From assembly GCA_000611775.1 (NCBI GenBank), contig KK106983.1:3993570-4057569 (forward strand): a DNA stretch of 64,000 bases, written 5' to 3'. Position numbers and translations under genes: made by a program. Each line of letters begins with the position of its first letter. The first letter of the stretch is position 1. Positions 6,609-40,705 of this stretch are shown here, one piece after another. Under the pieces are notes generated by a model that worked only from the letters and a program-made list of their open reading frames with translations, was not told the DNA's origin and did no database searches. Source of the DNA: Umbilicaria muhlenbergii (taxonomy: Eukaryota > Ascomycota > Lecanoromycetes > Umbilicariales > Umbilicariaceae).

Positions 6609-6727
6609 CGCCCCGGGGGCCCTCCACCGGCTCTTCCCGTTGAAAGGGTGGTTTCAGGCAATAATGGTTGAACAGCTTGATTGCTTGGGTATGCTCGAGG
6701 TGTTGTTCTAACGAGGAGAAATTCTAG

Positions 6728-8684: not shown

Positions 8685-8884
8685 CTCCACCAAAGCCAGT
8701 CCGACGTTAAGGGTGTATCCACTCGAGCGAGTTTCAGCCCTATGAAAAGCCCATTCCGCGTGCGGCAACCAATTCTTTGAGTTTCATTGGTGCGAATCTT
8801 GTAACGTAGAGCCCATAATGTTTCAATAAATTCCCCTCGGGGCCCGCCTTTCGGGGGAGCTAAGCCCCGGGATCCTACGAGCTG

Positions 8885-12443: not shown

Positions 12444-13062
12444 ATGATTTTTCTACATTCCTTGATCGTCATCGCTTTGGCTCAATTTGCCGCTGTCAGC
12501 CAGGCGGGACCAGTCCCGGGCTCTTTGATATTTGCTCGAAGCCGAGTCTGTGCCAATGCTCCCAACGTCAAAGCCGGAACGTAAGTGCAGCAGACAACTA
12601 TCCTACTCCGGAAGTAACGCAGAGCTAACAAGATATGCCCCCCCCAGGTACTTTACCCGCCGCGAGCTCCTCTCCAGCAGATTCGATCCCCGACCTGAAC
12701 CCGAAATAGTGGCCGTGTGTGTTCCCCACAGCCAGGTCTATGTAGTCATCACGATAGGAATCCAACTGGGCGGGAACACGGTTCAGAGTCTTCTGGAGAA
12801 CGCGGCGCTATACATTCTCAATGTCATCGTGGCGCGCGGCGACGGGGCGCTCCCCAACGGCATGTTCAACTTCCCGGGAATGAACGGTGCGACGTTGCAA
12901 GTGTGGAACGCCAACAACCACCAAACGACGTATGGTGTTTTGGGCGGGGCTCTCTCAGCTCTGCACGATTGGATGAGCAACCATGTGTATACGTCGGCGA
13001 GTTTTGGAATCTTTGATGGGCGGAATCAGGTTGGCAACGGGGTCATCAACGGAAGGCCTTGA
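12444..13062 (+). CDS. Secreted NANNHQ-family protein, copy A
   Basis: Exons 12444-12580 and 12648-13062 give 183 aa. The family is not one I recognise. Residues 1-21 form a signal peptide (MIFLHSLIVIALAQFAAVSQ). Cys near residue 36 (RVCANAP) precedes a phase-2 intron with GTAAGT donor and CCCCAG acceptor. The core then has CVPHSQVYVV, a helix, VARGDGALPNGMF, and WNANNHQTTYGVL near residue 132, ending with FGIFDGRNQVGNGV. Three paralogues lie at 20858, 22058 and 40095. The start is supported by the signal peptide and by the same exon structure in all copies. A secreted, disulfide-bonded product is inferred; function is unknown. Confidence 0.85.
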
Positions 13063-14010
13063 ATTTGGGACGCAAGGAAGGCGGTATTGACAGACGACAT
13101 TGCCGAGGATTATCAAGCGCTGACACCAACTGTCAACCACACAACATGGACGCACATAGCACAGCGGTGTATTGAATAGACGGTTCAACAGTGGACGAAC
13201 CGAATGAGCAGAAAGCCCAACCGTGCGGAGAGTGACTGCGTAGATCCGAGAGGATACACATCGCAATCACTCACCGAGCGCAGCTCGCTTGCGAGGCTCC
13301 CCGCTTTCAGGGCTCTTTGCTCTCGAGGCTCGTTGCGACAGACAAGCTCTCCAGACTCGTGATGCCTCGATCATAGCGAAACACGCCAGGCCTCTGCGTA
13401 ATGCTGCGTCTGCAATCGTGAGGCTCTCAGGCATGGATGACGAGACAGCGATGCTCGGGTGGAGATGCCATGAGATGCAATGAGATGCAACCCATGAGAT
13501 CCAATCCATGGAAAGCCACGTGACCAACACCCTGGCCCCCGCTTTTCGGCTGAATTGACTCTGGACTGGCGGACGGATGATCCGCTCGGCGCTTTACCCC
13601 AAGCGGCGCGGTCGCGAGTCCAATCAGAGCGACTCCAGCTGCAGGAACGCACGGACGTGAATGCGTGCATGGCAGAACGAGCTGGCGGCCTCCCAGGCTT
13701 CCACTCCCCTTCCCCTTCCACTTGCCTTCACGTTACACCGCAGCCTATCTCTCGTCGCTTGTCGCTCGTCGCTTGTCGCTCGTCGCTCGTCGCTCGTCGC
13801 TCGTCTCTCGCCTCCCGTCTCCCTCCCTTCAGCTCGTCCGCTATTCTCCCATTCGATTGTCGCTCGATTCATCGCCGTCGATTCCGTCAGATGTGACACA
13901 AATATCGCCATCCTCCATTCTCGGAGCTTTTGCCGCTATCATTGTGATAGCCACCACCTTCGTTCAAAGCACTCACTCCTGCCACGATCCTTATCGGCCC
14001 AGCCTTCACG
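13063..14010. other. Intergenic region with short repeats
   Basis: No credible gene. GATGCCATGAGATGCAATGA-type repeats lie at about 13463-13510. A pyrimidine-rich run of TCGCTCGTCGCT units (about 13757-13812) lies in the probable promoter or 5' leader of the next gene. Confidence 0.5.
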
Positions 14011-14912
14011 ATGGTGTCAATCGCGAAGATCCTCCTGCTGACCGTGCTCGCGACTCGATCGGTTGCTCAGCAAACCACGATTCTTCCAACAACACTGCCC
14101 GCCTGTGCCGCACAATGCCCGACTCTCCTCCAAGCACAGACCGGCTGCGTCCCGCCGGCGGCTCCGGTCACGAACTCAGCGACCTACCAATCCTGCTTCT
14201 GTCAATCCGGCTACCTATCCTCTCTGTACGCCGCCGCCGCCAGCAATCTGTGTCCGTCATGCTCAACCGGGGATATGAGCGCAATCCAAGCGTGGTACAA
14301 GTCGTTCTGCCCCCAGCAAGCCGCGGCAGCCAATGGCCAGAGCGTGGCGGTCGTGACAATGACCACGAGTGTGCTCGCGACAGCGGCGACGGTCAGTGCT
14401 CCTACTGCGACGCCGACGAACAGTGCAGCTGGGACGAGCGGTGGAACGAGTGGCGGCACCAGTGGCAGCACATCCGGCGGTGATTTGACCGGTCAAGATG
14501 AGACGCCCAATGGATCTCAACAAGGATGGTAAGAATGGCCACTCCCGACATCTTCCGAAGACTCAGGCAGTTGGTGGGTTCATGACTGACGTGTCGACCT
14601 AGGTTCTCGAACCATTGGCGATGGGTCGTCATGCTAATCATCCTCCTTCTCGGTCTCGTCCTGCTAGGGCTCGCCGCAGCGTTGCTCAAGCGTCGGTACA
14701 ACCGGCGCAGAGAAGCCCGAGAGCTAGGTGTCCAACCTGACTTGACTACGTGGGGTCCACATGGAAGCGGTGTGCATGATTTCGGCGTAGGCGAGGGATA
14801 TGGTGCGGGGGGCCAGAGAGGCAAAGGGAAGCAGGGGACCGATGTCAAGATGAGCGAGCCGGAGAAGTCTCATGCGGGAGGAGGGCGGAGGTTGAAGAAG
14901 TCTTGGCTGTGA
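14011..14912 (+). CDS. Secretory-pathway single-pass membrane protein with Cys-rich ectodomain
   Basis: Exons 14011-14528 and 14603-14912 (phase 2, GTAAGA/CTAG) give 275 aa. Residues 1-19 are a signal peptide. The ectodomain has a Cys pattern CAAQCPTLLQAQTGC, SCFCQSGY, LCPSC and SFC that recalls CFEM-like fungal surface proteins but is not a clear CFEM. A Ser/Thr/Gly-rich stalk (TSGGTSGGTSG) leads to a transmembrane helix VVMLIILLLGLVLLGLAAAL, then a basic RRYNRRREAR stop-transfer and a Gly-rich cytoplasmic tail. I infer a plasma-membrane or wall-facing surface protein. Similar integral membrane proteins of unknown role are common in Pezizomycotina. Confidence 0.85.
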
Positions 14913-15298
14913 GGATGGACTTGTACTGAGGGTTATGGCGTAGTCCAGTGGATCTGGGAACTTGGGTGTCTGGACTTTGCAACGGTAAGGTAGATGGAAC
15001 TAGCGCGGTGGGCTCACAATGGCTTAATGATAATGTCGCTACGTCTTGCTTTGCTGTACGATACCCGGGACAAAAGCCGGAGTCGAGAGGATATAATGAG
15101 GCTTTCTTTCGTTGGGCGACCCCAAGGTCATGGGCTTCAGTGCAGTTCCAATGCTATGCATTCGTCTTGGTGGTGATCTAATCATCGTCTTCATAGCTTG
15201 ACACAGGCAAATCAAACGACTGGCAACGACTGGCAACTACGGAGTATTGGCGACTGGTCTCGAGCAAATCCTCGACCTCCATCAGCGCTCCTGCTTAG
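14913..15298. other. Intergenic, no feature seen
   Basis: About 390 bp between the surface-protein gene and the transposon's TA target site. No frame or repeat worth calling. Confidence 0.4.
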
Positions 15299-15300
15299 TA

Positions 15301-15440
15301 CTGTGCTTTGCAAATGCCTGGGCCGTTTTTCGGAAAACCAAAAAAAAAACGTAGATTTTTAGAAAGGCCGCCCCATAGAACCAAATAATCCACCACCACC
15401 CACCACTGCCCCAACCCAACCCTATTCACCCTGTGAATAC
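15301..15440 (+). repeat. Left terminal inverted repeat
   Basis: About 140 bp, near-identical to the complement of 19287-19427. It contains an A-run, a block of ACCACCACCC type, and ends with CCCTATTCACCCTGTGAATA, itself an imperfect palindrome. Confidence 0.95.
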
Positions 15441-15463
15441 GCCTGTTTGACGTCGCCGCTGCC

Positions 15464-15979
15464 ATGCCTTCCAATAAGCAAAAACGTAGGAAAAGTGACG
15501 CCCCTGGCCCCAATTCGTCTCGGAGGCCACGAATCAGTGCCAACCAGGCCCCTCGAGACCACATATCAATGTCTCCACCCTCCCATTCCTCAATAACCGA
15601 CCCTGATGACTCGCCTCCCCCGTCCAAACAAGTACAAGCCACCCAGGCCACCCAAAACGATTCCCTTCTTCGAGACATAGCAGACATAGAGGCGGACGAG
15701 CCTATAGAATTCAAATTTGCATGGAAAACAACGTACGAAGGCCGATTGCTGGAGGAGGACAACAAGTGGTGGCAAATTAGGGGGCCAGTAGAGGAAAGAG
15801 CGGGTTTCCATGAGTTCTATAGACAAGAGGACATCAGGGCCAGAACGCATGCATACAAGAATGGTTGGCTATGCCATTTAGTCAGGGCTAAAGCCTCTGT
15901 CTCATGGGCGAACCAGAAGAAGCAGGACATAGATGTCGGATTGAGAAGGTCAGAGGATCAATCTAGAAGCATACACTGA
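15464..15979 (+). CDS. Transposon-borne ORF of unknown function (left)
   Basis: 171 residues from the ATG at 15464, 23 bp inside the left inverted repeat. The first 60 residues are basic and Pro/Ser-rich (MPSNKQKRRKSDAPGPNSSR). The remainder is folded-looking, with FKFAWKTTYEGRLLEEDNKW and WWQIRGPVEERAGFHEFY, rich in Trp and aromatic residues. I do not recognise the family. It may be a first exon joined to the ORFs downstream, but I found no convincing splice pair. It is not part of the transposase, which is on the other strand. Confidence 0.55.
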   Translation: MPSNKQKRRKSDAPGPNSSRRPRISANQAPRDHISMSPPSHSSITDPDDSPPPSKQVQATQATQNDSLLRDIADIEADEPIEFKFAWKTTYEGRLLEEDNKWWQIRGPVEERAGFHEFYRQEDIRARTHAYKNGWLCHLVRAKASVSWANQKKQDIDVGLRRSEDQSRSIH

Positions 15980-16136
15980 AGAATGAGAGCTCCTGATTGA
16001 TTCAAGTGCTCATGTTGTTTTTCTTCTTGTCTATTCTATTCTATCTATGAAGCACTATCAGGTGAAAACTCTGAATGCGCTAACCACTTTAGGCTTTAGC
16101 CAATCAAGTTCATAACACCTCCGAGCCACATCCAAA

Positions 16137-17577
16137 ATGCCTTCTAGTTTGACAATAGACTATACCAACATAAAGGGATACAATGGGTGGAATACCATAG
16201 AAAGGAGCATTATAAAGGCCAAAACAGCGAAGAAGAAGGAGCTTCGAGTGCATGTGGAACTGGGATTTGCCCGTACAGTGGATGGTGTTCTCACACCAGA
16301 GATGCGTGCTGCGGAGCACGCCACAATTGCCTCAAGCCAGAAGGAGAAGGAGACTGAGAAGGACAAGAAGAAGAAGGTGAGCTGACTTTCTTACTCTATA
16401 TCAATTGAATGAGAGCTGATTGATCGTCTAAAACAAGGGTAGAACGACAGAGAAACTTGTTCAAGAAGCAGAAGAACAAAGCGCTATTCAATCAGTAGAA
16501 GACAGCAGGCTTCAAGTGCTAGTTCAGCAGCATCGCTGTACAAATTCTTGATGTCCTAATGTGAATCACCATTGCTGGGTTCGGGCCACTGACGAAGTTC
16601 ATTTTCGGCTTGTTATAGCCAACTTTCGAGCCTGGAGTTCAGCGATGATTATGGGAGAAGCAGGAGTGACAAATGCGGTTCCACCAAGGATGATACAGAA
16701 GACTTTGACACGGGCAAGAAAGGTCTCTAAAGATCAGGCAACAGACAGTCAATCAGAGTACTCCAGTCATCATGAGTCACAGGCCTCAGGAAATGCAGCC
16801 TTGAGCAGTGGAACTTCTTCAAGAACTTCAGCGCCAGCAGACACAATGAGACAATTGACTGCCATGATGCCCATATTTGCCATGAAAATGCTGGAGAAGC
16901 TCATGAATCCTCCATCTACTCCGCTCACTCCAAGCCCTAACCCCCCTGTGAATATGTTGAGGGGGTTACCCCGACTGCCTTCTGAACCAACTGCTACACC
17001 AACCTCATATGGACTTTCCAGGGCCTCTAGAGATTCTGAATGCCGTCAATCTGAAAGGCCAAGCAGTCCAGTAACAGGTGATCAGCTTCGGGAGTATATT
17101 GACTGGATGAAAAGTCACCAAAAGCCTGGAAAACATGTTCTATTGGAGAACGCTTACGAGGCTTTATCTGCTGAAGATTATGACCTTCAAACCATACAGT
17201 GTTGGAAGGGAGACGTGCATGAAGCCCGTTGGAGAAACCTTGGAATTCCTATTGGATTGAGGCACCAGTTGGCTCAAGACGTTAGTATATTTGCCGCAAC
17301 AGCTACAGTACTGTCTAGTCAGCAGAGGACTGCTCCAGTGATTGTACAATCATCCTCAGCAAGGCCACATATGAAGGCTTTCAGGCCGCTAACTGACAGC
17401 CAATTGTATCAAGACGATTCGTTCATTCCAGAGCCACCACCCGCTATTACTCAAACTCAGGAGGAGGAGGAGACTGAAGCATCAGAGACTGAAGAGGAGG
17501 ATTTAGACACTGACTCTGTTCACTCTGAGGCACATCAAGAGTATGACTTTGACGAGGAAGACATGGAATACTTGTGA
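16137..17577 (+). CDS. Transposon-borne ORF(s) of unknown function (right)
   Basis: An 82-codon frame from the ATG at 16137 (MPSSLTIDYTNIKGYNGWNT) ends at a likely GTGAGC donor near 16377. A second open frame covers roughly 16561-17577, with no ATG at its start, so it is probably a downstream exon. The first part is Lys/Glu-rich (KEKETEKDKKKK). The second has Ser/Pro-rich linkers, a short conserved-looking block LREYIDWMKSHQKPGKHVLL, and an acidic tail (EEEETEASETEEEDLDTD). I recognise no family. The middle exon is uncertain. An acidic tail plus a basic leader fits a DNA-associated protein, but this is a guess. Confidence 0.45.
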
Positions 17578-18307
17578 GAGAGTCAAATTGCTCATTAAAA
17601 GGAGGGGGAGGGGGGGGGTAAACTCTACACATAGGACTGCAGGTGTTTGTGAAAGCTTCTTTATACATACATATGGCTTTTCCAATCATGTAATGTCAAT
17701 GCAATGAGTTCTGAACCAAGACTAAGCTGTGACGCTGTTGTAAACATTGAATTTGCAGAATTTCAGAAGAAATAAATTTACCAAAAATCCAGATCTTGTC
17801 CGGACAACTTGAAACTAACACATATAACAAGGAATAGTAGTCTCTTGAGGCCGCGAAAAGGAGAGCTTGAAGAAATAACATCCAGAAATTACCCCTATTC
17901 ATCTTGTTTCTGAGTGACTTTTCAAGTACCCCCCCCCGGAACTGTCACTCAACCCCTCCGCCTGCTATCCTCCACTCTTCAGTCTAAGATATGACCCTTA
18001 TCTAGACCCTCATCAAGTCCCATAACCTCCAGCTTCATGGTTGTGGATTGGTATGAGGGTGGTCGAATTCAGCTTTTGAGAACTAGTAAGAACGTTAGCG
18101 TTTTGCAATAGTTATGGCGCAAGGGGCAAACCTGAAACATAAAATCAAAAGCTCAACTCAAAGCTCATTGTATGGTATACCGGCTGCTCAAAAGTGGGCT
18201 CCTGGATCTCCCACAGCATGAATTTCTTGAACAGCGTCTCTGAGAAATTGCTCAAAGCCTCCCATGTCTTCAGTGTAGTAGCTCAACTGTACACTATGAT
18301 GTTTAAG

Positions 18308-19261
18308 TCATGACTTCAGTGTGGCGAATGTCATTTCAATGGGGTTTAAGTCCGGTGAATAGGGAGGCAAGTACGCAAGTTCTATACCTGCTTCTTGACA
18401 CAAAGAACGGAATTCCTAAGCAGCAGACATTAACAGAGGCAGCTTTAGCAGTGAGTAGAGGACCTATACATACATCTGAATGGTGTATACTGGCGTTGTC
18501 AACCACCAGAACAGAACGAGGCTCAGACAGTTCAATTCGTCCACATTGAGGAAGCACTTGGTTGGCCACAAAATCATTGAATATGGCCGCAGTTATAGAC
18601 CCATGATGTACTTCCCATGCAATATACCCATGAATTGTATATGCCGGTAGAATACTCCACCTCTTAGACCGCTTCAATGGGGTGGCCAGTCTCGCTGTGA
18701 CCCCTATAGGTGCCCAGCCAAATCGACGGTCTGCTGTACGCTCACAAGCAGCACTCTCATCCATGAACACCAACTGATCAGGCCTCCACTGACTCAGCCG
18801 AATCACTCACTCATCTCGCAGCTCCTGATTTCGGCTGTATTGCCTGCCGAGTCATCTGTTTTCGACTCCAGCCCAATTTCGTAAGGGTTCTACTCATGGT
18901 GCTTTGAGAGACAAAGACATCAAATTCGTCGAAGATAAACCAGCAGAGTTCGTCGAGAAAGGCGAAAGGACATTGATCAAGGTATTCAAGAAGTGCCTAC
19001 ACAATTTTGTTAGCTGAATGAAGCCTGCTTCTTTCTATTGACTTTACTTACCTGCTCCATTGCTGCTGTCAGACTTCTCGCCCTTCCAATTCGCCCCAAT
19101 CTAGGAGCATTGGCCGTCCCATGTAGACGAATATTCTCCTTCACACGGCGAACCTGCCTCTCAGAGACATTGCACTCGTTGGCGATAAAAGGGGTCTTTC
19201 GCCCGCCTCGTAAATGGCTCAATATGGCTTGCAATTTGTCTGCATTTAGTCGTTTGGGCAT
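18308..19261 (-). pseudogene. Tc1/mariner DDE_3-type transposase, damaged
   Basis: From the ATG at 19261 the N-terminus is a helix-turn-helix (MPKRLNADKLQAILSHLRGG, then NVSERQVRRVKENIRLHG). A GTAAGT intron follows near 19048, and the next exon has SQSTMSRTLTKLGWSRKQM. The catalytic half has FMDESA (first D), LVVDNASIHH (second D) and PPYSPDLNPIEMTF (final acid E), all typical of the IS630/DDE_3 superfamily. The frame shifts near 18838 and near 18420, and a TGA at 18807-18809 replaces an expected Trp. The copy is therefore inactive, although its ends could still be used in trans. Confidence 0.85.
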
Positions 19262-19286
19262 GGCGGCGATGATGAGGTCTAGGGCA

Positions 19287-19427
19287 GCCCTATTCACCCT
19301 GTGAATAGGGTTGGGGCAGTGGTGGTGGGTGGTGGTGGATTATTTGGTTCTATGGGGCGGCCTCTCTAAAAATCTACGTTTTTTTTTTGGTTTTCCGAAA
19401 AACGGCCCAGGCATTTGCAAAGCACAG
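19287..19427 (-). repeat. Right terminal inverted repeat
   Basis: Complement of the left end, with a one-unit difference in a short AACCC repeat and a GAAAGG/GAGAGG change. Ends CAG then TA target duplication. Confidence 0.95.
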
Positions 19428-19560
19428 TAAGAGCTTACATAACCTCGATCACGGCTTTTGCCGCGAAGTCTTGTCCTAAGACGAGAGACGGTCGTGCGAC
19501 CCAGCTAATCCCCATCTCCAACCTCGACCCATCCTCCCGCGGCCGACCTTCTTTCTCACC

Positions 19561-20476
19561 ATGCTGACCTCAGCCAAAAATCCTCTGCGAGCATCAGCTC
19601 GAAGCTGCCGATTCCAACCGTCTCTCTTCGCGCCATGCAGCTACCAGGCACCCTCCCCTCAACCCCGACAACGAAGACCCCTCACCTCGAAGCCATCATT
19701 CCTCCAAGTCGCTCGACCGACCTCAAAGTCAATTCCTATCAAGCCTAAACAGAACCGCAATATATCCTCCATCCGCGCGGCATCCACCTCGACCACACCC
19801 ACCTCACCAACCTCCACAGCCTCCGCAGCGGCATCACCCTCAACCGCATCCCCCAACCCAGACTCCACTCTCCCACTAACATGGAACGAATTCCTCCGAC
19901 TGCGCAAAGTGCGGCGTCGCTTCAACCTCGTCGCATCCATGGGTACGGCAACGATGACAACCCTCGCAGGAATATCCGTGCTCTCGCAGCAAGACCTCGA
20001 GGCCTTGAGCGGCCACGTATTCGGGCTGGATCCATTCGTGGTGTTGGGACTCGCAACGGCCGGGTGTGGAGCGGTGGGATGGTTGATCGGCCCGGTGTTG
20101 GGAGGGACGGTTTTTGGGTTTTGGTATCGGAGGTTTGGCGCTCAGATTGCTGAGGTGAGTCCCAGCCTACGGAGATGGAATTGAGAACTGGGAGAAGTGG
20201 TGGGAGGTTTGGTAACGCGCGGAAACTGACTCCATGCGACCGGCACCTACAGAAGGAGCGAGAGTTCTTCCATCGCATCAAGAAGTACAGAGTCGATCCC
20301 TCGAGCCAATCGATCGCGAATCCTGTACCTGACTATTACGGTATTTCACCTCGATACGACTATCAGATGGAATGCTAATCGAGAGACTAGGGGAGCGTAT
20401 TGGTAGCGTGCAAGGATATAGGCACTGGCTTAAAGACCAACGGGCGTACAACAAAAAGAGGGAGAGTTATGTCTAG
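19561..20476 (+). CDS. PAM17: Presequence translocase-associated motor subunit Pam17
   Basis: Exons 19561-20154, 20253-20340 and 20391-20476 give 255 aa. Pam17 is an inner-membrane subunit of the TIM23 import motor that helps drive preproteins into the mitochondrial matrix. The N-terminal 100 residues are Arg/Ser-rich and acid-poor, as in a mitochondrial presequence. The core LTWNEFLRLRKVRRRFNLVA, two hydrophobic segments (TATMTTLAGISVL; PFVVLGLATAGCGAVGWLIG), and the C-terminal KEREFFHRIKKYRVDP and RIGSVQGYRHWLKDQRAYNK are diagnostic. The two small introns restore the conserved C-terminus exactly. It lies only about 130 bp outside the transposon, which inserted in its upstream region. Confidence 0.95.
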
Positions 20477-20857
20477 AGGCTTGGATGATTGACCTGCGGG
20501 ATGGAGCGCAGGCATCTCGAAAACGTTGCTGATGGCGGGCGTACGTGCAGGGCTGGTGCCCGAGCTCGTGTAGGATATTCTACAATTCCGATCTGGGACG
20601 GATCCGCTGCAGGCTGGATTTCGGCGCTCTCGGCATCGGTATGTACATGTAACTAGCATAAAGCGTTTCGCAAAAAGACATCACTCCACCCTCCACGCGC
20701 TCGGTCAATTTCCATCCACCTCGTCAATTCGTCTCCGCCCGCTCGTGCACACCCTTTCCATCCCCACCCGCTCCTACATCCCCTTCCCATCCGCACCACC
20801 ACCCTCCCGCCCACCAAACCCCGCCCACCAAGCCCCACCCACCTATACCCCCCCAAC

Positions 20858-21553
20858 CTACCCCTCCCCCAAGCTCCCCTCCCCGACCTGATTGTCCCCA
20901 TCCCAAATCCCAAACCCCACCTCCCCGTACCCATAAACGCTCATATAATACCTGACCGCCCCCAACGCCGCCTTCAGCACCCCCCACGTAGTCTGATGAT
21001 TATTGGCGTTCCAAGTCTGCAGCACCAAGCCCTGTTCGCCGTTGGCGCCGAAGAGTCCGCCGCCGGGGATGACGCCGTCGCCTTCGGCGACGAGGTGGTG
21101 GGTGATGGTTGTGAGGGCGGATTGGAGGAGGGCGTCGATGGCGGGGCCGGCGAGGGCGTGGGTGACTTTGAGGATGACGTAGGTGCGCGAGGAGGGGGAG
21201 CACCAGACGCGGGTGCGGGTGCCGGGGATGTGGACGAGGGGCGGGGGGATGGGGGGGGCAGAGCGGGGGTGGAGGGGGAAGGGGTCGAGGGAGTCGAGGT
21301 GGAGGAGGGCGCGGGAGTTGAGGGTGGCGGGGGCGAGGCTGCCGGGGGGTAATGGATGTCAGTTGGGGGTTGGAGGAGTGGGGGAAGATGGAGGGACGCA
21401 CGAGCCGGCGGTGATTGAGGGGTCGTTGTCGCATTTGGGGGCGCCGCGGAGGGCTAGGGAGGAGGAGGAGGGGAGGTCGTTGAGGATTGGGGTGCCGATG
21501 GTGAAGACGGCGTGGTAGGCGAGGGCCAGGGCTGCATGAGCGAGGACGAGCAT
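20858..21553 (-). CDS. Secreted NANNHQ-family protein, copy D
   Basis: Exons 21553-21402 and 21338-20858 (minus) give 210 aa. The start MLVLAHAALALAYHAV acts as a short signal peptide. Cys1 lies in APKCDNDP just before a phase-2 GTGCGT/GGCAG intron, at the same place as in the three paralogues. A Pro-rich insert (HPRSAPPIPPPLVHIP) distinguishes this copy. The core is VWCSPSSRTYVILKVTHALA, VAEGDGVIPGGGLF, then TWNANNHQTTWGVL, YYMSVYGYGEVGFGIWDGDN and QVGEG. The second exon is very GC-rich. It is transcribed divergently from copy B across a 504-bp gap. Function unknown. Confidence 0.8.
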
Positions 21554-22057: not shown

Positions 22058-22685
22058 ATGCGAGCCTTCGCTCTATCAGTAGTGGGTGCTATAGCCCTGC
22101 TCACTGCCATTGGTTCTCCAACCCCAATAGCTGCGTCCTCGATAACGGAACGACGGTCCAAAGTCTGCACAAACGCCCTATCAACGGTAGCCGGCAGGTA
22201 AGTAAAACGCTGTGTTTTCGAGTGTTAGATACACCTATCTGATGAACTATCTGCAACGCAGCACCTACAATCCCCGCGATCTCGGGCCTTACAAGGTCCG
22301 GCAATCTCGGGGGAAACGAATCCCAACATACTGGTGTGCACCCAATAGCAACGTTTACGTGGTATTCCAAATCATCAAAACTGTGAACGGACCGTCAATC
22401 CCGGAGATGCTGCTATCCCTATTCAACCAACTAAACCGGAAGATCCAACGGAACGGTGACGGTCTGGTTGATGGTGGGGTTTACAGATGGGGTCCAATGG
22501 GGACCGGAGCCTTAGCCAGTTTCATGAATGCCAACAACCACCAGCTGACTTATGGGGTGGTCCGCTCGGCAGTGGCTGCTGTGAGGGATTATATGGCAAA
22601 AGACGGTGATTATGGCGAGTTGTCATTCGAGATCTGGGATGGTGACAACGAAGTCGGCACGGGATTGATTGGATACGCGCCATAG
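22058..22685 (+). CDS. Secreted NANNHQ-family protein, copy B
   Basis: Exons 22058-22197 and 22262-22685 give 187 aa. A signal peptide (MRAFALSVVGAIALLTAIGS) is followed by RRSKVCTNAL with Cys1, then a phase-2 GTAAGT/CGCAG intron. The core reads YWCAPNSNVYVVFQI (Cys2), a helix LLSLFNQLNRKIQ, NGDGLVDGGVYRW, MNANNHQLTYGVV and LSFEIWDGDNEVGTGL. Relative to copies A, C and D the Trp before NANNHQ is Met and the second Thr region is QLTYG. The basic segment between intron and Cys2 (PYKVRQSRGKRIP) may be a processing site. Partner of copy D, head to head. Confidence 0.85.
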
Positions 22686-27526: not shown

Positions 27527-29248
27527 ATGAAGTTCAGATCCACTCACGTCGATAGCGACAGCGCCCATTCTCCCTCTGACCTCGACGAGAAGAGAATTGG
27601 CGTTGCTGCAGGAGAATTTGAGACGGTCGGCCATGGCCAGCTACCGCCAGACCCAGATGCAGGGCTCAGCGAGGCGGAGAGAGAACACATTGTGAGCACA
27701 AGTCATCCTGCCCTCCAGACCTGACCCTTTACTAACCATCATCCGTCGCGATCAGGACAAAAAGCTACTGCGGAAGCTCGACATCAAACTCATCCCGTGG
27801 CTCTGCCTCCTCTACCTCTGCAGTTTCCTCGACCGAACCAATATTGGCAACGCAAAGCTCGATGGGCTTCAAAAAGACCTACACATGACCGCGGGAGACT
27901 ACAATGCTGCTTTGTCCATCTTCTTCGTCTCCTATTCCCTTTTCGAACCCCTGACGAATGTGGGTTTATGCTCCCATCCTCCTTTCTTGGTCAACGATAG
28001 TTCTGACTCGTTTCACACTTAGGTCCTACTCAAGCGCCTGAAACCCAGCGTCTTCATTCCCGCCATCATGATCCTCTGGGGCATGGTCATGACATTCATG
28101 GGTTTGTGTCATAACTGGTCTGGTCTCATGGCCGCTCGCTTCTTCCTTGGTAGGCCTTTTCTGTCAAGGTGCAGTGGCAGTGCTCATGCTGATGATAACT
28201 AGGTGTCGCCGAGGCTGGATTGTTCCCTGGTATCACCTACTACCTATCATGTTGGTACAAACGCAGCGAAATCGGCATCAGGGCTGCTATCTTCTTCTCC
28301 GCCGCAGCAGTATCCGGTTCCTTTGGCGGCCTCCTCGCGGCGGCGATTGGAAAGATGACTGGCATTGGCGGGAAAAGAGGATGGGCATGGATCTTCATCC
28401 TGGAGGGCATCGCAACCGTTGTCATCGGTGTCATATCCATCTGGATGGTGCACGATTTCCCAGACGACGCGACATTTCTATCTGACGCCGATCGCGTTCG
28501 CGTGATTCGAAGGCTCAAGAACGACCAACAGTCATCCGCAGAGCATGAGGAGTTCAAGATGGAATACTTCTGGGCCTCGGTCAAAGACTGGAAGACTTGG
28601 CTTTCCGCCCTCATCTATATGGGCGCCGACGCTCCTCTCTACGCCTTTTCACTCTTCCTACCGACCATCGTAGCTGACCTGGGCTACACTTCAACAAGGG
28701 CGCAATTGCTTTCGGTGCCCCCTTACGCTGCCGCGGCAATCCTCACCATCACAATAGGCTATATTGCTGATCGTACGCGCCAGCGCGGTCTGTGCAACAT
28801 CTGCGTCTCTTTCCTTGGCATCGTTGGCTTTTCTATGTTACTGGGCGGAAAATCACCCGGAATACAATACGCTGGCACATTCCTCGGCGCATTGGGCATC
28901 TACCCGTGCATCGCAAACACCATCTCGTGGGTCAGCAACAACACCGAAGGGTCTTACAAACGCGGCGTGACTCTCGGATTCGTCATCGGATGGGGTAACC
29001 TGAATGGGATCGTTTCGAGTAACATCTACCGCGCAAAGGACAAGCCAAGGTACAAGCCAGGTCACGCGGCCGTTCTGGGATATCTAGTCATTTTCCTGCT
29101 TGGAGGCTCCGTATTGCAACATGTATTGCTGAGGAGGGAGAATGCGAAGAGACGAGCTGGAGCAAGGGATGGATGGATTGCGGGTAAGAGTGAGAACGAG
29201 GTTGAGCTTTTGGGCGACAAGCGGCCCGATTTCATCTATACACTATAG
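27527..29248 (+). CDS. MFS transporter, allantoate permease (Dal5/ACS) family
   Basis: Four exons (27527-27691, 27756-27959, 28023-28149, 28203-29248) give 513 aa. The Dal5-type anion:cation symporter family of the major facilitator superfamily carries carboxylates such as allantoate, nicotinate or pantothenate across the plasma membrane with protons. Typical blocks are KLDIKLIPWLCLLYLCSFLD, DRTNIGNAKLDGL, RFFLGVAEAGLFPGITYYLS, GKRGWAWIFILEGIATVVIG and DFPDDATFL. About 12 hydrophobic segments and a short charged tail are present. The exon junctions restore the conserved motif GVAEAG across the last intron. The substrate cannot be told from sequence alone. Confidence 0.93.
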
Positions 29249-31438: not shown

Positions 31439-32165
31439 GCTGGAAGCAATCGGGGCTGAAGGGAGATTCTGACCGGTTCTCCGTTGAATGACTCCCGGGG
31501 CAATTTGCTACGAGGATAAAACCGCGTGGTCGGAGGCTCGCGTGAACACGTTGTGCCCATCCCCGCGTTATCCCTTCTCCATATGCTGGGGCATTTCTAA
31601 TACGTATACTGATATTTTTGAAGCTGTCAAGCAACATCGTTTGGAACCGGGGCCCAAAAACCTAACCCTACAGACAGTCAGGGGCGGCTAATAGCCATCC
31701 ACGTTATGAATTACGGCCCATGGCGCCGGGGCGAGCTCCGATACACCCTGATGGCATGAAAGAGATAGCTACGCCGGTACTGCCACAGTCCTGTGCTCTG
31801 CAGACATCATATTAGGCGTTGCGGTTCACAAACAACGCGGGCGTACACGGAGGGCCTCCGAGAAAGACCTCCTATGCCATGCAACAAGAGACGCAGACGG
31901 ACGACGTTGGGTTTCAGCCTACGTAAGAAATAGCACAATCACCACTTTCACCACTGTGACAAGCAGACGATTCATTTCCGTCGTTCGGGTTTATTCACAT
32001 ATATCACAGTTGGGACCAAACTCGAAGGCACACAACTGAATTTAAATACACCGCACCAGCAACCCCAACGGACCTGCCGCTACCGACCAATATACAACGC
32101 AAAATGCCCAATATGATTTTCGACCCTCTCTATCCACAAACGCCCATCCCACCCCCGCCACACCC
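31439..32165. other. Intergenic, no feature seen
   Basis: About 730 bp between the mucin-like gene and the small secreted protein gene, which end toward each other. No credible frame, RNA gene or repeat. Confidence 0.45.
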
Positions 32166-32759
32166 TCAGTATTTCGACGCGGAAGCAGACGTTGTCAACG
32201 ACGAGGTAGCAGATTTCGTGGAGGTAGTCGAATGCTGCTCCTCCTTGGCCACCAACCGACACGCCTCGCCCAAATTGACAGCGGCGACATAATCCTCGAC
32301 CCACTTGGGACAACCGGCCGGAAGCCCGGTCGGCTTCGGATGTTTCTTCCCAGTATGCGTGGAAGAAGAAGTGGTATGACTAGCCGTCGACGGAGTGCTC
32401 GGGCCAGCAGTCGTCGAAGAGCTATGACTACTCGTCGAAGCAGTACTATTATGCGGGACCTTGGAGTGGGGAGTGGTCGTGACCTTGGGAAGTTTCTTGC
32501 AGACCTTCTCCTGCAGATCCGGGGCGACGAGCATGCGGACCCATTGCGGGCAGCCGGCGGGGAGAGGGGTGGATTTGGGGGCTGCGGCGGTGGTGCTGGT
32601 TGCGGTGGTGCTGACGTGGGAGGCTTCTTGGTGGCCGTAGGCTGCTTTGGCGGTGGTGGTGCGGGTGACGGTGACGGTGACGACGTCGGGGTTGGGGGCT
32701 GCGGAGGCGGTGGCGGTTAGGGCTAGGAGGAGGGCGAGCCATTGGGCTTTGGAGAACAT
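32166..32759 (-). CDS. Small secreted protein with duplicated LPAGCPxWV module
   Basis: 197 residues, single exon, ATG at 32759. Residues 1-20 are a signal peptide (MFSKAQWLALLLALTATASA). Two short modules share LPAGCPQWVR...LQEKVCKK (about residues 67-91) and LPAGCPKWVE...LGEACRLV (about 147-170). Each has two Cys about 18 apart, with Ser/Thr-rich linkers between and after. I recognise no named family. The layout suggests a wall-associated or extracellular protein with two small disulfide-bonded knots on O-glycosylated linkers. Confidence 0.8.
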   Translation of the reverse strand: MFSKAQWLALLLALTATASAAPNPDVVTVTVTRTTTAKAAYGHQEASHVSTTATSTTAAAPKSTPLPAGCPQWVRMLVAPDLQEKVCKKLPKVTTTPHSKVPHNSTASTSSHSSSTTAGPSTPSTASHTTSSSTHTGKKHPKPTGLPAGCPKWVEDYVAAVNLGEACRLVAKEEQHSTTSTKSATSSLTTSASASKY

Positions 32760-34069
32760 GGTGGGTGGTGGGTTTAGGGGAAAGTGGTGGTTGAGAAGAA
32801 GTGGTGGTTAGGATGTAGGTTAGTCGTAGGATAGGTGAATCACCAAAATCAGGAGGAGAACGTCGAATGCAAGGAGAGGAAATGAATGTCAGATCAATTT
32901 AGGGGGATATTGACAAGATATGAAGTAGAGTCTCAATCACGGTGACGACTAGAATAAAAGAGGCGCAGGAACGCACGGAAGTATTAAATGCAGGTACGCT
33001 TGAGACGATAATGCCAAGAGCAGCCCAAGGAAAGGTGATTTATATACTATAGTGAAGCAATCCAAAAGAGCGGCAGCGCAAGAGACCGGAGCACTGACAT
33101 AATTGTGGAACACAAGAGGAGGCTGAGCACGTGTTTCCCAGGTTTTGAAGCGTTCTAGACCTGTGTTACAGATGAGGCGACGCGGATGAAGAGCATATTT
33201 TCTCATTACCCTTCTCATTACCCCGGAGAAACGTGTAAATGTCCGATGACTGACACACTCACTGAGAAATCGCATGTTTCACACAAGCAGGCTGAGGGCC
33301 TTCAACAAGGTCGCTTCCCGACTCTGGGCACCTGTACCTTGATCGAAGAAACGCAGACCGGCCGCAATCGTGGCCTCAAGCGCAACGGCAACAGATTAGC
33401 CATAGTCCTCCAAGCAAACGCCACAACCTTCAGGCTCCAGAGCATAAATGTAGACACAAGCTATTCCGACAAGCATCCAGACCAAGCTTTCCGACCGAGC
33501 CTTGAGGAAAAGTCTCCAACACATGGCTACAGCATGGGCTCCAACTTTTCTCCCTTGGTAAATCCAACCGTGAATGGTGGCTCAGCATGTCCCTGACATG
33601 AGTCTGATGGAAAAAGGCGCGCATCGCATACTCGCAAGGCCATGAAAGAAGTGACCCTTGTGGCGGAGTCGTCGCAGATTTCCATCGTGAAGACGGCAAC
33701 TGATGCTCTGCGGTTCAACGTCCAAAGTGCTCTAACCCGAAACGGCTAATGCGATCACAACGGCCATCACGGCTTCCCCTTCGAACTTCGACCTTCTACT
33801 CCCAGTTAGCGGCCTCACTGCTCGCGGCCCAGCTGGGACGCAGGACGCTGCGGCAATTTCAAGATGCATATCCTCTTCCGGTCTCCTGACGACCTATGGG
33901 CGGAGATCGGAGCCAGATGTGGAGTCGCAACAATGTACTCCGCTTCGTACCTTTTCGGTGCCCTGGCCGTGTTGTCGTCGAGTATGTTCCCCGGAGAGCT
34001 CTACAGCTGGAGCATACCAGGGCTTGCCCAAGTGCTGAGGCTGTGCCGTGATAGTCTTCACCGGTCACG
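32760..34069. other. Intergenic, no gene seen
   Basis: 1.3 kb upstream of two divergent secreted-protein genes. Frames of 100-140 codons occur on both strands at 33190-33700 but have no domain, signal peptide or matched splice sites. Confidence 0.45.
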
Positions 34070-36127
34070 ATGACATACCACCGTTTGCATGTTCTCCTCA
34101 GTGTCATTCTGTGCGTTCTCTTTGCCTTGCCGTCAAGCTCCCGCGCGTCAGGATCGCGGACCCCTAACCATGAGGTGTTCAAGCGACAGAGTGCCGCCTC
34201 TGGCCTCCTCAACGATTTCCAGGTCTACGAACCGGTTCTGACCCCGACCGGTTCCAGCGACCAGTATGGCTGCATCTATACAGAGCTCTTGATGGACCAC
34301 TCGTTCGGATTTTCGTATGGGGTGCCGTTCGTTGGTAAAGGCCTATGTCTGCGTGGAAGTCGCTCCAGGTGATCCTGCTGATCCGCCTTTGCCCTAGGAA
34401 GCTACACGCCTCCACCATGCTCCTTCAATCGCGTCACGATGAACTTCACCGTGACCTCGGCTGGCAGACAATTCGACCGTCTTGGCATAATGTACCTTGG
34501 AGATATCGAAGTTTTCCGCACTTCTACCGCTGAGCCCACTGCGAGGGGCATTGTTTGGACTTACACCAAAGAGATGGAACAGTACAACGCGCTTTGGAGG
34601 GAACCGCAAAAAATCATCTTTGACTTGGGCAATCTGATTGATTCAACGTACACCGCGGCTTACAATACTACATTGACAGCGACATTTTTCACCGTACCGA
34701 ATTCCAGGCCCACCGCGGATCAGATCCTGCCCATTTCTGCTCTACAATCGGGTAAGAACATGGGTAGCAACTTCCAAGTACCCTCGCAGAATGCGTCAGT
34801 TTCTTACACGCTGCCTCGGAACATTCAGCGCGCCGTGGTTAGTCTCAGCGCCAATGGGCAGGCAACGGAAGAGTTCTGGTATACGAACGTTCTTTCGTCT
34901 GATGCCAATACTTTCGTCAATACGACAGGGACCTTGTACGGATATTCACCCTTTCGGGAGGTACAGCTCTTTGTTGACGGGCAGCTTGCTGGCGTCAGCT
35001 GGCCCTTTCCCGTAGTTTTTACCGGAGGCATCGTCCCAGGGCTTTGGCGTCCGATCGTCGGGATTGACGCTTTCGATCTGCGCCAACATGAGATCGACGT
35101 GACTCCATTCCTGCCATTGCTGTGTGACGGTAACAGTCACATATTTGAAATTCGAGTTGCAGGACTCGATGATGATGGTTCGGGGCACGCCACACTTACA
35201 GAGACTGTAGGCTCATATTGGGTAATCACGGGAACGATCTTCTTGTTTTTGGACGGTGCAGGTTCTGTGACTACTGGGTCGATGCCCGTTGTCAACCAAT
35301 TGCCACCCCAATTCACCATTTCTTCCGTGGTTACCCAAGATTCAACAGGCGCGAATGAGACACTGGTATATACTACCGAAGCGTCTAGATATCTGTCAAT
35401 CTCATCTACCATCACCACCTCAACCGGATCTTCCGCAGTGTCCTGGGTTCAGCACCTCTCCTACGCCAATTATGGTGCTCTGACCGCACAAGGTCTCGTG
35501 CAGGTGACCAACCAAACCACCGCCGGTATTGACACGTCCTCCAGCGGTTATGTGAATAGCTACAGCTATCCCATCTATGTCAATTCATCCTATTCCATTG
35601 ATGCAGCAGGCGACGTGGGAATCAAGGCCACCATTACCCTCGGGCTCGACTTCAATGTCTTCGGACCATCCGTCTTCCCCTCGGGCATTCAAAGCTTCAA
35701 CATCACGACTCCCGCTCAGTTCAGCCTCGCCGGCAGCATTGTACCGCAAAGCGTCCAGTTCACCAACAACCTCCCGTTTTTCAGCGGGTCCCAACTTTCA
35801 ACAACACAATCGGCCAGCGCGCAATACTACTCCAGCCGAAGGCTATCCTACTCCTTCGGGACCACCGAGCAAGACTTCTCCTTTAAGGGCGTGGAGGTTA
35901 ACGTGCCAGATGTGACTGTTGAATTATATACTAGGCATGTCGTCGCTGTCAACTCGACTGTGACCGAGGACAACCAGACGCTGGTGGGAATGACTTTTGG
36001 GCCTCAGATGGCGGTGGCGGAAATGGCAGAGGCCGGGCCGGCGTCAGATGATGTGTTTAGCGTGAGGAGTTTGCTGGGCAGAGGACCGGGGAAGACGAAG
36101 GTGGAGTTAGCTGGGGGGACATTCTAG
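34070..36127 (+). CDS. Peptide-N4-(N-acetyl-beta-glucosaminyl)asparagine amidase A (PNGase A)
   Basis: Exons 34070-34334 and 34398-36127 give 664 aa. PNGase A-type enzymes remove N-glycans from glycopeptides in acidic, extracellular or vacuolar settings. A signal peptide (VLLSVILCVLFALPSS) leads to YGCIYTELLMDHSFGFSYG and, across the intron, YTPPPCSFNRVTMNFTVTS with LGIMYLGDIEVFRTSTAEPT, IVWTYTKEM and GNLIDSTYTAAYN, the signature blocks of the family. Later blocks include REVQLFVDGQLAGVSWPFPV and IVPGLWRPIVGIDAFDLRQH. Many N-x-S/T sequons are present. Length agrees with fungal members. The intron (GTAAAG/CTAG) is supported because it restores the block exactly. Confidence 0.92.
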
Positions 36128-37093
36128 AGTGTTAACGTGTATGACTATGCATCGACCTAGGGCCTCAGGTAATAGTTAATACGGTGTACGCTCCTGGCGC
36201 ATTTCGGTGAGACCAGTATCAATTCATCCATACTCGGGTGTACAAAGACACAAGGCCTTTCGGCCTCACGCGTGGGGCATCAAAACAATACAAGAAACGC
36301 ACTAATGCACACCAACTTTGTCCGGGATCGCTCGGTGATCGCTTCCGACCCTTGTGTTAGTCTGCTTTGGGGATAGCTAATCAACTTGCAGTCGCAACGT
36401 GGATCTTAACTTACCCGGCCTCAACACACCTTCAAGATGGATGCTATTTAGATAAAGTGATGAATCCAGCACAATGATAAAGGAAAACTGAAGACCTTTC
36501 CTTATATTTCAGCAGCTGAGTATAAACTTTATTCATTTAGTAAATTTTGTGGACTAAAATATATAAATTGAATATAGAAAACTATTAAGAAGAAATATAT
36601 TACATGTGTTATTATTTGTTTACTTTTTAATTACATTAAAAGAAAACATAGTAGTATAATAATTCAATATGATATCTCACTGCGGATGCTAGTAAAAATT
36701 CAGAACAACTGAATATATATTATAAAGAATATTAAAAGCTATTTAAATTACTTTAGACTTATATATTAAATATTTATTTAAATCTCCTTCAGCAAAGTGA
36801 TAAATTACGTATTTAATACAGAGGACAGAAAATTTGTTGAGAGATTCACTGAGTTAAAGTTTAATTATACATCATATAAGAGTGTCAGCATTCACTGAAC
36901 TTTAAACTTTAACTACTTATTACTTTGTTACTTTACACATTACACTCTTTACTCACACAATATATTATCTTATAATAGACATAAACCTCTCACTTACTAA
37001 CTTCAAAGTATCTTTGCAGAACAATATCATAGTTGAGTCTATTGTTCTGATTATATCAGAACTTACTTGCAGTTTTGTGCAAGTTTGCACAAG
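36128..37093. repeat. AT-rich block (36440-37060) and flanks
   Basis: About 600 bp is strongly AT-rich, with long A/T runs such as AATATATAAATTGAATATAG, in sharp contrast to neighbours. A lone TTACCCGGCC lies just before it at 36411-36420. Such blocks in ascomycetes often come from repeat-induced point mutation of old repeats, which I infer here. No coding remnant is readable. The last 15 bases before 37017 form CTTCAAAGTATCTTTGC, also at 42188. Confidence 0.65.
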
Positions 37094-38837
37094 ATGTTAG
37101 GTCAGTACTATGCAACATTTAAGGTTACCACCCAACTGACAGCAGCAGTAACCTCCTCAACATCAACATCCTCAGCTGCGACGACGTCGTCGCAATTGGG
37201 AGTGCTGCCAACCGGCTTAAGGCCTGTGTATCGCGACGCTCGCAGTCGTGCACTATATCCCAGAGATGCGCGCTCCAACTCTTTACCGGGTGGCAGCGCC
37301 AGCTCTCCCAACGCCATCCCAAAGCTGACCAAACAATTCTCCCACGTTCTTCTTCCAGCACGTCCCAAATACATACCAAACTCGGCGATATCTCTGCCTA
37401 CTGGACCATCACTCACTCCAGTCGAGTATGGGGGCCCCAAGATGCACATATCCTCGAGAACTGTCTCACGCGGTCAAGTCCACTTCCAACTAAGCCGAGT
37501 CGCTGATGGCGCGACCACACTTTACCCGGAAGATGTACCTTTGGAGCGCCTCTTCGACTTCATTACGCCCGAGGAGCTGCAGAAGTTCGAGCACGAGCAG
37601 TATGCAGTTGAAGAAGAGCAAGAGAAATTAAGAAAGACGGTCAAGAGGAGAGGACGACCGCCAGGATCAAAGAAGAAGACAACCGTCACAGGGCCGTCAA
37701 CGCAAGCTGGGAGCGGAGACCTGAGTCCCAGGCCTCCGTCGTCTGAGCCAACGTTGTCGGTCACGTCTGAGACCGATCCGCTCCAAAGAGAATCTGAACG
37801 TGACGCCATCGAGAGGGCTCCTCCACAACCAAGTGGTCAAGGCACCACCAGCAGCGCAGCCTCTACACGTTCAACAATATCTCAGCAATCTGAGGAGGTG
37901 GAACAAGGACGATATCAGATGCTGCCTCCTACGCCGCGGCGGATCTTGCAATCCGTAACAAGATCCTCGAGCACTAGCCCTGTACCGGTGAATACCGGTA
38001 AGTTCCTATTCCATTCATGAAACCGTCACCACTGACGGTTTTCCAGCTTCATTCGCCCAAGCACAGCAATATGTGAGCCCTGCCGCAAAGAACAATGACT
38101 CACGTCGACCCAAAACTGTTGCGAACCATCCCTCGAGGTCTCCAGAACATATCAACAACGAAACGAATAGTCATCATATGTCCAGACCTACAGCGACTTC
38201 AAGACCCGCTAGCGTCAGCTCGTCCGCTACTTCCAAAATCGGTCATCCCGCAGATAGCGACGACGAACAAAGTGTGAACAGCGAAGCCCTGCTGCGTCAG
38301 TTCCAAGGACAGAGTGTCCAGAGGCTAAAGCACCAGTCTCCGTTAATCAGTCTCATCTCAAAGCATTCACACACCCCCAACTCAACAAAGACGAAAGCCC
38401 TCATATCATCCTCCTCCCCCATCCTACCCCCATCAGCCTCCAAAAAACGCCCTTCACCCAACAAACCCCCCACACCCACCCCCCGCACCGCCAGAAAGCG
38501 CAAACGCCTCTTCACCCGCAAACCCCCCACCCCCAAGCCCGCCGCCCCCGAAGAAGAAGACTGGTACATCGAGCGCATCGTCGACCACCGCAAACCCAGC
38601 TATCCAAGCCGCTTCCACCTGGAGTACCTGATCAAATGGCGGGACCACCCTGCTGACGAGAATACGTGGCAAAGCGAGGAAAGTCTGGTGGGTGCGGACG
38701 AGATGCTGAAGAATTATCGCGCGAGGGTTGCGGTGGAGGGGGCGGGGGAGCATGGGAGGAGGTGGGTGAGAGCTATGGAGGGGCGGAGTGGGGGGAAAGA
38801 GGAGGATGAGGATGATGAGGAGGAGATGAGTATGTAA
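37094..38837 (+). CDS. AT-hook and chromodomain protein
   Basis: Exons 37094-37997 and 38047-38837 (GTAAGT/CCAG, phase 1) give 564 aa. An AT-hook-like KRRGRPPGSKKK lies near residue 200, preceded by DFITPEELQKFEHEQ and a Glu/Lys-rich helix. Basic, Ser/Pro-rich sequence (ARKRKRLFTRKPPTPKPA) leads to a C-terminal chromodomain, WYIERIVDHRKPSYPSRFHL through LIKWRDHPADENTWQSEESL. The aromatic residues W/Y at its start, W in IKW and W in NTWQ form the usual methyl-lysine cage. An acidic tail ends the protein. I infer a nuclear chromatin reader; a role in heterochromatin is possible. The start next to the AT-rich block is the least certain part. Confidence 0.85.
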
Positions 38838-40094
38838 GGGAGAGGAGAGATGAACGGTGTTGATGTTGGGGAGGTATGATGTGATGATGTGATGGGTACT
38901 GAGATGATACGAATCTTATGAACTGGGCTTTGGCGCTGGGGATCTGGGTGGGGCGATGGCTTTTGCTTGAGCCGGGTTGTTTGCAGCGCTTGCTCTGAAT
39001 GTATACTTTATGGAGCTTGAGTGGGTAAATTAATATCTAATCTTTTGGCTTTGCTTGATCATAGTAATTAATGATCATGGATTATGGCATGGATTATGGT
39101 TGTATTTGGATGTAACGGTACCCAACGTGTTCACTTAGTATTATTGCCTCTAGAAAGCCCTCAGGCATAGAATCAACAGGGGGAGCCCCCACCTAATGAA
39201 GCGCTGGTCTCAGAATTTGAGGATACGAAATCCGTAAAAATCTGGAAACCTTTCAACTCTACAATCCGCAGTACGCAACAAGATTTCGCAGTCCGCTGTG
39301 GTTTTGTCGCCATTGACGGCCCGTATCCCTCTACTCGGAACAACCAATCATTTCGCCCCGACGCCTGCCCTTCCCCCCCCTCCAAGCCCTAGACCTACAT
39401 CCCAACCTAAATCTCACCTGACCGGCACCCTTCCCGCCACACCCACATTCTTCAGCATATTCTATCACTTGTTTGAGTTCTTTGACACACGACGCCGATT
39501 CCACAAGTGCTTTGTTCACGGCACCGCCTGCTGCGGCTGAAACATCTAGTGCGTGCGCGACGTTTCGCTCTTTTTGCAGCCGCAGAGGCGATTTTGCGGC
39601 ACGGTTGGATTTGCGCGCGAGCGACAAATTTTGAGGTCTGGACTCCGGGAGGGGAGTTTGCGGGATAGGTTGTTGAATATAATTCCACGGATCGACTATC
39701 CCCTAAAAACAAGTGGGAAATGCCCAACTATAAGGCCCTGACGTGACTGCCTGGACCCTGAAATTCACCCCGATATCCGACACCCGAAAGCCGACAGCGC
39801 CTAAATTCAACATAGGTTTGAAGCAGAGATGGAGACGGGCGTGCTGGGGAAGAGGATGAAGGGTGCGCTCGGGTAGTTCTGGGAAGAGAGGGGAGGGTCA
39901 AAGGGCGAGTGAGAGATTGCGAAGGTTGAAAGGTTTCTGTTCTGCTACATTCCTACAGTTGACCCGATTTCATATCGTCATTATTATCAGTTGGAGTATC
40001 GCATGTGGTGAACTTCTTGCTACTCGCTGCGTTGGATCTACGTCATCCCATCCCATTCCACCAGCCCTCGTCGTCCCCAAAAGCCCATATCAGC
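38838..40094. other. Intergenic, no supported gene
   Basis: 1.26 kb. A 98-codon minus-strand frame around 39331-39627 has some helical coding character (AHALDVSAAAGGAVNKALVE) but no ATG at its open end, no paralogue and no domain, so I do not call it. Confidence 0.4.
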
Positions 40095-40705
40095 ATGCGA
40101 GTCTCCAAGCTCTCGATCATCCTCAGCCTAGCTCAGCTCTCCCCTCTCGCCTACGCCCTCCCCCTCACCGCTCCCTCCCTCTCTCCTCGACAGGAAATCT
40201 CCCCCAACGCCCAACCAAACTCGTAAGCACCTCCCCCTCCCCCTTTCCCCCTCCACACTCTCTAACCACCCCGCCCAGCCTCCTCGCCACCCGCTCCTCT
40301 CCCCTCCCCCTCCTTCCCCGCTCCCCCACCACGCACATCTACCGCGCCCCCAACTCACAAACCTACATCATCCTCACCCTCCGCCACGCCTTCACCGGCA
40401 CCGCAATTCGGGACCTGCTGACTATGGCCATGCACACAATAAACCTGCAGCTCGACCTACACGGTGACGGACTCATCCCGGGGGGAACCTTCAACCGGGA
40501 ATCTAGCACTACCGGGCTAGTGTTGCGGGCGTGGAATGCTAATAACCACCAGACGACCTGGGGGGTGTTGGCGGCGGCGGTGACGGCGATGTTGGACGGG
40601 ATGGCGAGGGATGGGTGGGGGTGGTTGTGGATGGAGGGTGAGGGCGGGCTGATGTGGCTGTGGCGGGTTGGCTTGGTGGTTGCGGGAGCGGAAGTGCGGT
40701 CGTGA
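40095..40705 (+). CDS. Secreted NANNHQ-family protein, copy C (cysteine-free)
   Basis: Exons 40095-40222 and 40279-40705 give 184 aa. A signal peptide (MRVSKLSIILSLAQLSPLAY) precedes the phase-2 GTAAGC/CCCAG intron found in all paralogues. The core has IYRAPNSQTYIILTLRHAF, HGDGLIPGGTF and AWNANNHQTTWGVL. Both family cysteines are gone: Cys1 is replaced within QEISPNAQ, and Cys2 by Arg in YRAPNS. The C-terminal WDGDNxVGxG segment is also diverged to a Trp/Gly-rich tail (WGWLWMEGEGGLMW). This copy may be neofunctionalised or decaying, although the frame is fully open. Confidence 0.8.

Follow-up and report, generated by a model that had tools for sequence, protein, structure and literature searches.

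Large families of small secreted proteins within one fungal genome are already known as a kind (for these and the other papers cited we draw on portions of the published texts). Marssonina brunnea encodes 107 small secreted IGY paralogs, which have low identity, a unified exon structure and two conserved cysteines (PMC4367982), Venturia has secreted-protein families of up to 75 members (PMC9632046), and the RALPH candidate effectors of Blumeria graminis are one expanded secreted fold, of whose 279 members a single species has 262; such single-genome expansions are called rather rare in the same text (PMC10462633). Here we describe a comparable family, predicted to be secreted, in the lichen fungus Umbilicaria muehlenbergii, starting from four genes (A to D) in a 64,000-nucleotide stretch ("the window") of contig KK106983.1 (assembly GCA_000611775.1). 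The assembly has 34,788,950 bases on seven contigs (C1 to C7), with the window at C3:3993570-4057569, and the genome is reported as 34.81 Mb on 7 scaffolds with 8,294 genes (PMC9232553). The family occupies about 170 places on all seven contigs, approximately 2% of that gene number. A literature search, supplements not covered, found no description of its signature, its fold assignment or its size in a lichen fungus, and we regard the sequence family as un-catalogued. The genes in the window are as follows.

Gene A, exon 1: 12444..12580, plus strand, predicted signal peptide and conserved cysteine, ending in NAPNVKAG
Gene A, intron: 12581..12647, plus strand, phase 2, GTAAGT..CCCCAG
Gene A, exon 2: 12648..13062, plus strand, linker, second cysteine in VCVP, and domain with predicted beta-(alpha-beta2)2 fold; NANNHQ at 12907-12924
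Gene A, product: plus strand, 183 amino acids (aa)
Gene B, exon 1: 21402..21553, minus strand
Gene B, intron: 21339..21401, minus strand, phase 2, GTGCGT..CGGCAG
Gene B, exon 2: 20858..21338, minus strand, NANNHQ at 20993-21010
Gene B, product: minus strand, 210 aa
Gene C, exon 1: 22058..22197, plus strand
Gene C, intron: 22198..22261, plus strand, phase 2, GTAAGT..ACGCAG
Gene C, exon 2: 22262..22685, plus strand, the modelled domain; NANNHQ at 22527-22544
Gene C, product: plus strand, 187 aa
Gene D, exon 1: 40095..40222, plus strand, lacking the conserved cysteine
Gene D, intron: 40223..40278, plus strand, phase 2, GTAAGC..GCCCAG
Gene D, exon 2: 40279..40705, plus strand, NANNHQ at 40535-40552, end of the domain profile unmatched
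Gene D, product: plus strand, 184 aa

An original prediction from the window sequence had proposed an undescribed four-member secreted family that expanded locally, and much of its description of the genes is borne out. All four models, with products of 183-210 aa, are open two-exon structures in which a single GT-AG intron of phase 2 occupies a common position. All carry the motif NANNHQxTxGV. For A and C the frame stays open with other acceptors too, and the one given here rests on alignment. Each protein has a hydrophobic N-terminus (by hydropathy score for A, B and C, and by eye for D), as expected for the signal peptides that had been proposed, and secretion is thus predicted. Cysteines lie on either side of the intron in three of the four as described, with D having neither, and the GDGxxPxG turn is likewise found in three, but C reads GDGLVDGG. 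Single-protein searches with C and with B each recover the remaining genes of the set, with E values of 1.8e-15 or lower, and the signature exceeds chance: the genome holds 76 exact matches to degenerate DNA encoding NANNHQ, against none in its reversed control. The absence of a known Pfam family also held, with 0 hits at E 1 in an hmmscan of the four window proteins, and NCBIfam gave none with the same four.

The family is, however, far larger than four. Searches of the genome, each scoring 150 candidates, gave at least 151 matches with protein C and at least 152 with protein B, and hand merging of the C, B and NANNHQ-DNA matches yielded the figure of about 170, a lower bound in which one two-domain gene is counted twice and the counts for C4 to C7 are match coordinates only. 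We read 127 loci on C1 to C3, window included; the domain lies in one open frame in 115, and 12 are interrupted or partial, D among them. A phase-neutral splice scan gave a model for 92 of the 115 genes (the other 23 had no acceptable one), with phase 2 in 90 and phase 1 in 2, and 82 of the 92 admit phase 2 only. Among the 90, the most frequent exon junction is AG|T (57 genes), another 13 have AG|S, and a segment resembling C-A-N-A-P-x-T-V-A-G closes many first exons. The proteins have a median length of 188 aa (range 163-338), and both cysteines are present in 70 of 90, neither in 11 and one in 9; being mostly paired or both missing, they behave as expected for a disulfide. Exactly two cysteines follow residue 20 in 53 of 90, with one protein having five and none more (cysteine and LxxR counts here and below are by regular expressions and include a few misassigned genes). 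The proteins share the features of the orphan candidate effectors of PMC10462633, namely a secretion signal (here by hydropathy only), a mature length under 300 aa and no Pfam domain. Between 107 and 207 small secreted proteins are given per lichen fungus for six genomes (PMC9232553), a range in which the approximately 170 places alone would fall, and annotations may thus miss or mis-model many members. The two-domain gene (L063, C2:1722292-1723131) has two family domains in tandem in a single open frame, and another member, at C1:10663892-10664266, terminates 13 bases from the end of C1 (position 10,664,279).

The family differs from the IGY proteins in its sequence: of 90 proteins one, that of gene C, contains the string IGY, which lies there at the C-terminus and not after the signal peptide, and QMxIP occurs in 0 of 90, so IGY membership was rejected. 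IGY genes have two introns (PMC4367982), whereas the models here fit one, a second intron not having been searched for. The RALPH effectors, which belong to a pathogen rather than a lichen mutualist, are distinguished by their fold, as discussed below.

Pairwise identity among 114 paralogs has a median of 0.345 and a maximum of 0.617. In a FastTree tree of 135 rows the four window genes fall in four placements, ten Lasallia rows in nine and five Hypocenomyce rows in five, with three Teloschistaceae rows forming one clade; support is sparse, 17 of 132 forks being starred, and the starred branches alone require at least 7 changes for the ten Lasallia rows and 3 for the five Hypocenomyce rows. 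From these scattered placements, in a weakly supported tree, the repertoire seems to have existed before Umbilicaria, Lasallia and Hypocenomyce diverged. The local expansion that had been proposed is not sustained, because the window genes have four separate placements and closeness on the contig brings no greater similarity (25 neighbour pairs in the fetched loci, median identity 0.344 against 0.345 for random pairs, none mutually best). Running against this rejection, members less than 5 kb apart exceed random expectation on C1 (14 versus 1.9) and C2 (11 versus 1.0); no such excess is seen on C3 (1 versus 0.5) or C4 (1 versus 0.4). Repeat-induced point mutation (RIP) as the explanation for the missing young copies is not supported, since neither the window nor the fetched regions show a strong RIP mark in their dinucleotide indices.

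Outside this genome, the named homologs in the first protein search were from Lasallia, Umbilicaria and Hypocenomyce, all Umbilicariales (protein database searches go by shared words with at most 8000 candidates scored, and counts are among the matches listed). A 130-member profile matched at least 40 proteins, including one from a Caloplaca, and this protein as query gave at least 21 more; the named rows, 15 with the query counted, represent 14 species in genera of Teloschistaceae, Fulgogasparrea among them. The two groups align with hhalign at 99.65% probability over 117 columns, and full-length rows extend the match to 159 columns, including the exon-1 cysteine segment. The Teloschistaceae proteins (P0134-P0155, e.g. 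Xanthoria and Gyalolechia) share with the Umbilicariales family this segment, an LC(T/A)PGTET strand, DGV, a TWGVL helix and a WDGxNQVG hairpin, and modelling places the same structural folds at the top. They differ in having an insert in the NANNHQ loop and in number, with about one copy per species among the matches listed (15 named proteins, 14 species, 22 rows) compared with approximately 170 here. A full signal-peptide start is present in 6 of the 22 models and absent from 16, which suggests that the short first exon is often overlooked in annotations.

The domain is predicted to have a fold resembling the fungal killer toxin KP4 and plant ginkbilobin-2. Structure prediction with AlphaFold2 for the gene C domain (predicted local distance difference test score, pLDDT, 89.6; predicted template modelling score, pTM, 0.84) gave elements E31-40, H45-64, E73-76, E83-89, H97-114, E118-126 and E129-138, with a short E22-25 ahead. 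Zt-KP4 (PDB 8acx) is the first row of the structural comparison both for this model and for a second one, and also in plain Foldseek. Against the gene C model, ginkbilobin-2/DUF26 structures (PDB 3a2e, 6grf, 6gre) reach the same Z as KP4, and they lie within the top four rows of the second, from whose rows KP4 (PDB 1kpt) is absent. This predicted fold also separates the family from the RALPH effectors, which have an RNase-like fold. The element order is the beta-(alpha-beta2)2 order of the Gink2/KP4 class, a type widespread among fungal candidate effectors (PMC10462633).

The family shares with Zt-KP4 and KP4 a predicted beta-(alpha-beta2)2 sandwich, predicted secretion and a similar domain size, but we detected no sequence kinship. 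Membership in Pfam Kp4 (PF09044) was rejected, with no match among 66 homologs at 0.1 or 130 members at 0.01. The genome has 14 Kp4 loci over the cut-off, none at a family place and two lying 0.7 and 2.2 kb away; hhalign of the family against three of these Kp4 proteins gave a probability of 0.2%. Those three (of the 14 loci) have six invariant cysteines in common, and such a multi-cysteine scaffold does not fit a family with mostly two and, in 90 proteins, at most five; conversely, NANNHQ is a signature of the family and not of KP4. With ginkbilobin-2/DUF26 the family would share the fold class, and it differs in the arrangement of its cysteines. Stress-antifung (PF01657) was rejected too, without a match in the four window proteins, the 66 homologs or the 130 members at E 0.01; the genome search for PF01657 also gave no match, a weak result because its control was equally silent. 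Other matches we read as chance: Pfam scans gave six families with one member each for the 66 homologs (best E 0.01) and five with one each for the 130 members (best E 0.003), and PDB sequence searches with A3, A4 and A5 gave 3, 1 and 1 rows (best E 0.026). The Teloschistaceae set gave weak Pfam rows only; for example, three of its 22 proteins matched a phage holin, with E 0.058 at best.

Conservation within the family is strongest in the loops GDG, NxNNHQxT and DGxNxVGxG, and two arginine positions are conserved as well. An arginine stands four residues ahead of the first cysteine in 52 of 72 genes and another lies in the linker ahead of the second in 95 of 107; LxxR is found at each site in 46 of 72 (8.0 and 10.5 in shuffles) and at both in 31. 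Because confidence in the linker model is low, this second arginine is unlikely to be structural, and in the Teloschistaceae proteins the linker has a dibasic KR in 20 of 22. Together these sites are consistent with kexin-like cuts and a two-chain product tied by a disulfide. We envisage that a signal peptide directs secretion, that a kexin-like protease cuts twice (four residues before the first cysteine and about eight before the second, often at LxxR), and that the mature form would be a short peptide disulfide-tied to the domain. By element order the conserved loops would lie at one end of the sandwich and may form a single pole that binds one common extracellular ligand, most plausibly a cell-wall or matrix glycan (ginkbilobin-2 binds mannose), while the diverged remainder could serve different partners, whether the photobiont, the wall of the fungus itself or other microbes. 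As a whole, this reading of an old, dispersed, kexin-processed two-chain family with one common ligand at a conserved pole stands, in our estimate, evenly poised between right and wrong.

Several other functions can be considered. The family might comprise killer-toxin-like antimicrobials, each paralog harming particular fungi, bacteria or algae in the manner of KP4, with many targets accounting for the large repertoire. KP4 toxins and the antifungal ginkbilobin-2 do head the structural matches, kexin-like cuts and a disulfide-linked second chain would resemble killer-toxin maturation, and canonical Kp4 loci are present in this genome; moreover, a KP4-like gene of Cladonia grayi has a value of 150 in an expression table, which we take as a co-culture fold change (PMC6652019). 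We nonetheless think this unlikely. The domains are acidic (median isoelectric point, pI, 5.0, with 63 of 72 under 6.5), which speaks against a cationic membrane toxin, they lack the multi-cysteine scaffold of the Kp4 proteins compared, the genome already has a separate canonical Kp4 set, and varied targets would need no single conserved set of polar loops. An action as interface effectors on the algal partner (recognition, wall loosening or immunity), diversified for photobiont choice, is a further possibility that we hold with little confidence. Resynthesis of Gyalolechia flavorubescens brings early induction of lineage-specific small secreted proteins, and 75% of all small secreted proteins of U. 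muehlenbergii have been classed as species-specific, close relatives being absent from that data set (PMC9232553); small secreted proteins are also induced in Cladonia co-culture (PMC6652019), and the fold is common among candidate effectors (PMC10462633). The apparent age of the repertoire weighs against it, as do the 114 paralogs, among which the young tandem copies typical of arms races are not seen.

We consider it very improbable that these are structural or housekeeping proteins of wall or matrix (for desiccation or as matrix glue), their number reflecting dosage or neutral drift. The proteins are acidic, mostly single-domain and predicted to be secreted, a strongly hydrophobic C-terminal stretch passed the threshold in 0 of 90, the shared core is strongly conserved and most frames are open (115 of 127), but dosage leaves the low paralog identity unexplained. 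An extension of the two-chain, common-ligand reading is that the approximately 170 distinct proteins, disulfide-tied, kexin-processed and of KP4/ginkbilobin fold, might be a long-stable set that jointly encodes recognition or binding where the fungus meets its alga (or other microbes), with the shared pole holding one glycan, variable surfaces telling partners apart, and the set having grown in Umbilicariales from a protein of which other lichen-forming Lecanoromycetes (Teloschistaceae) seem to have about one copy; we offer this as speculation that is probably wrong in its full form. The effector-like or wall-interaction role suggested in the original prediction may apply, the predicted fold being widespread among fungal candidate effectors (PMC10462633). 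The way in which lichen fungi and their algae interact through proteins has yet to be settled, and the family is a concrete candidate for how the fungus deals with its alga or neighbours, one for which a profile and a predicted fold are now available, together with two putative protease sites and a conserved pole where binding might occur. A study of 11 Umbilicaria species reports 703 changed gene families with no Gene Ontology enrichment, and we saw no secreted family named in the portion of its text drawn on (PMC12492740).

Judging from its alignment, gene D has probably been damaged or altered. It lacks both cysteines, and its match to the 160-position domain profile covers just 21-126, whereas full members reach about 143-147; the corresponding Lasallia protein (P0002), with 82% identity to D over 109 columns, retains the profile end.

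The window has a GC content of 53%, compared with a mean of 46.8% given for the genome (PMC9232553). A PNGase A peptide-N-glycanase gene (34382-36124, plus strand) lies between family members C and D, and a secreted cysteine-rich protein (14011-14529, plus strand) is CFEM-like by eye, with no Pfam match at E 0.001. Several long open frames at 3354-8783 (minus strand) resemble a retrotransposon lacking long terminal repeats (non-LTR), the frame 5022-6653 matching RVT_1 and the rest being assigned by eye, and transposase fragments of DDE_3 and MuDR type, the latter with a zinc knuckle, are at 18339-18806 and 53559-54665 (minus strand). Ordinary genes encode Pam17 (19561-20181), an MFS transporter (28199-29245), HisG (47234-47830), glycerol-3-phosphate dehydrogenase (50958-52511) and a glycogen debranching enzyme (55706-60160).

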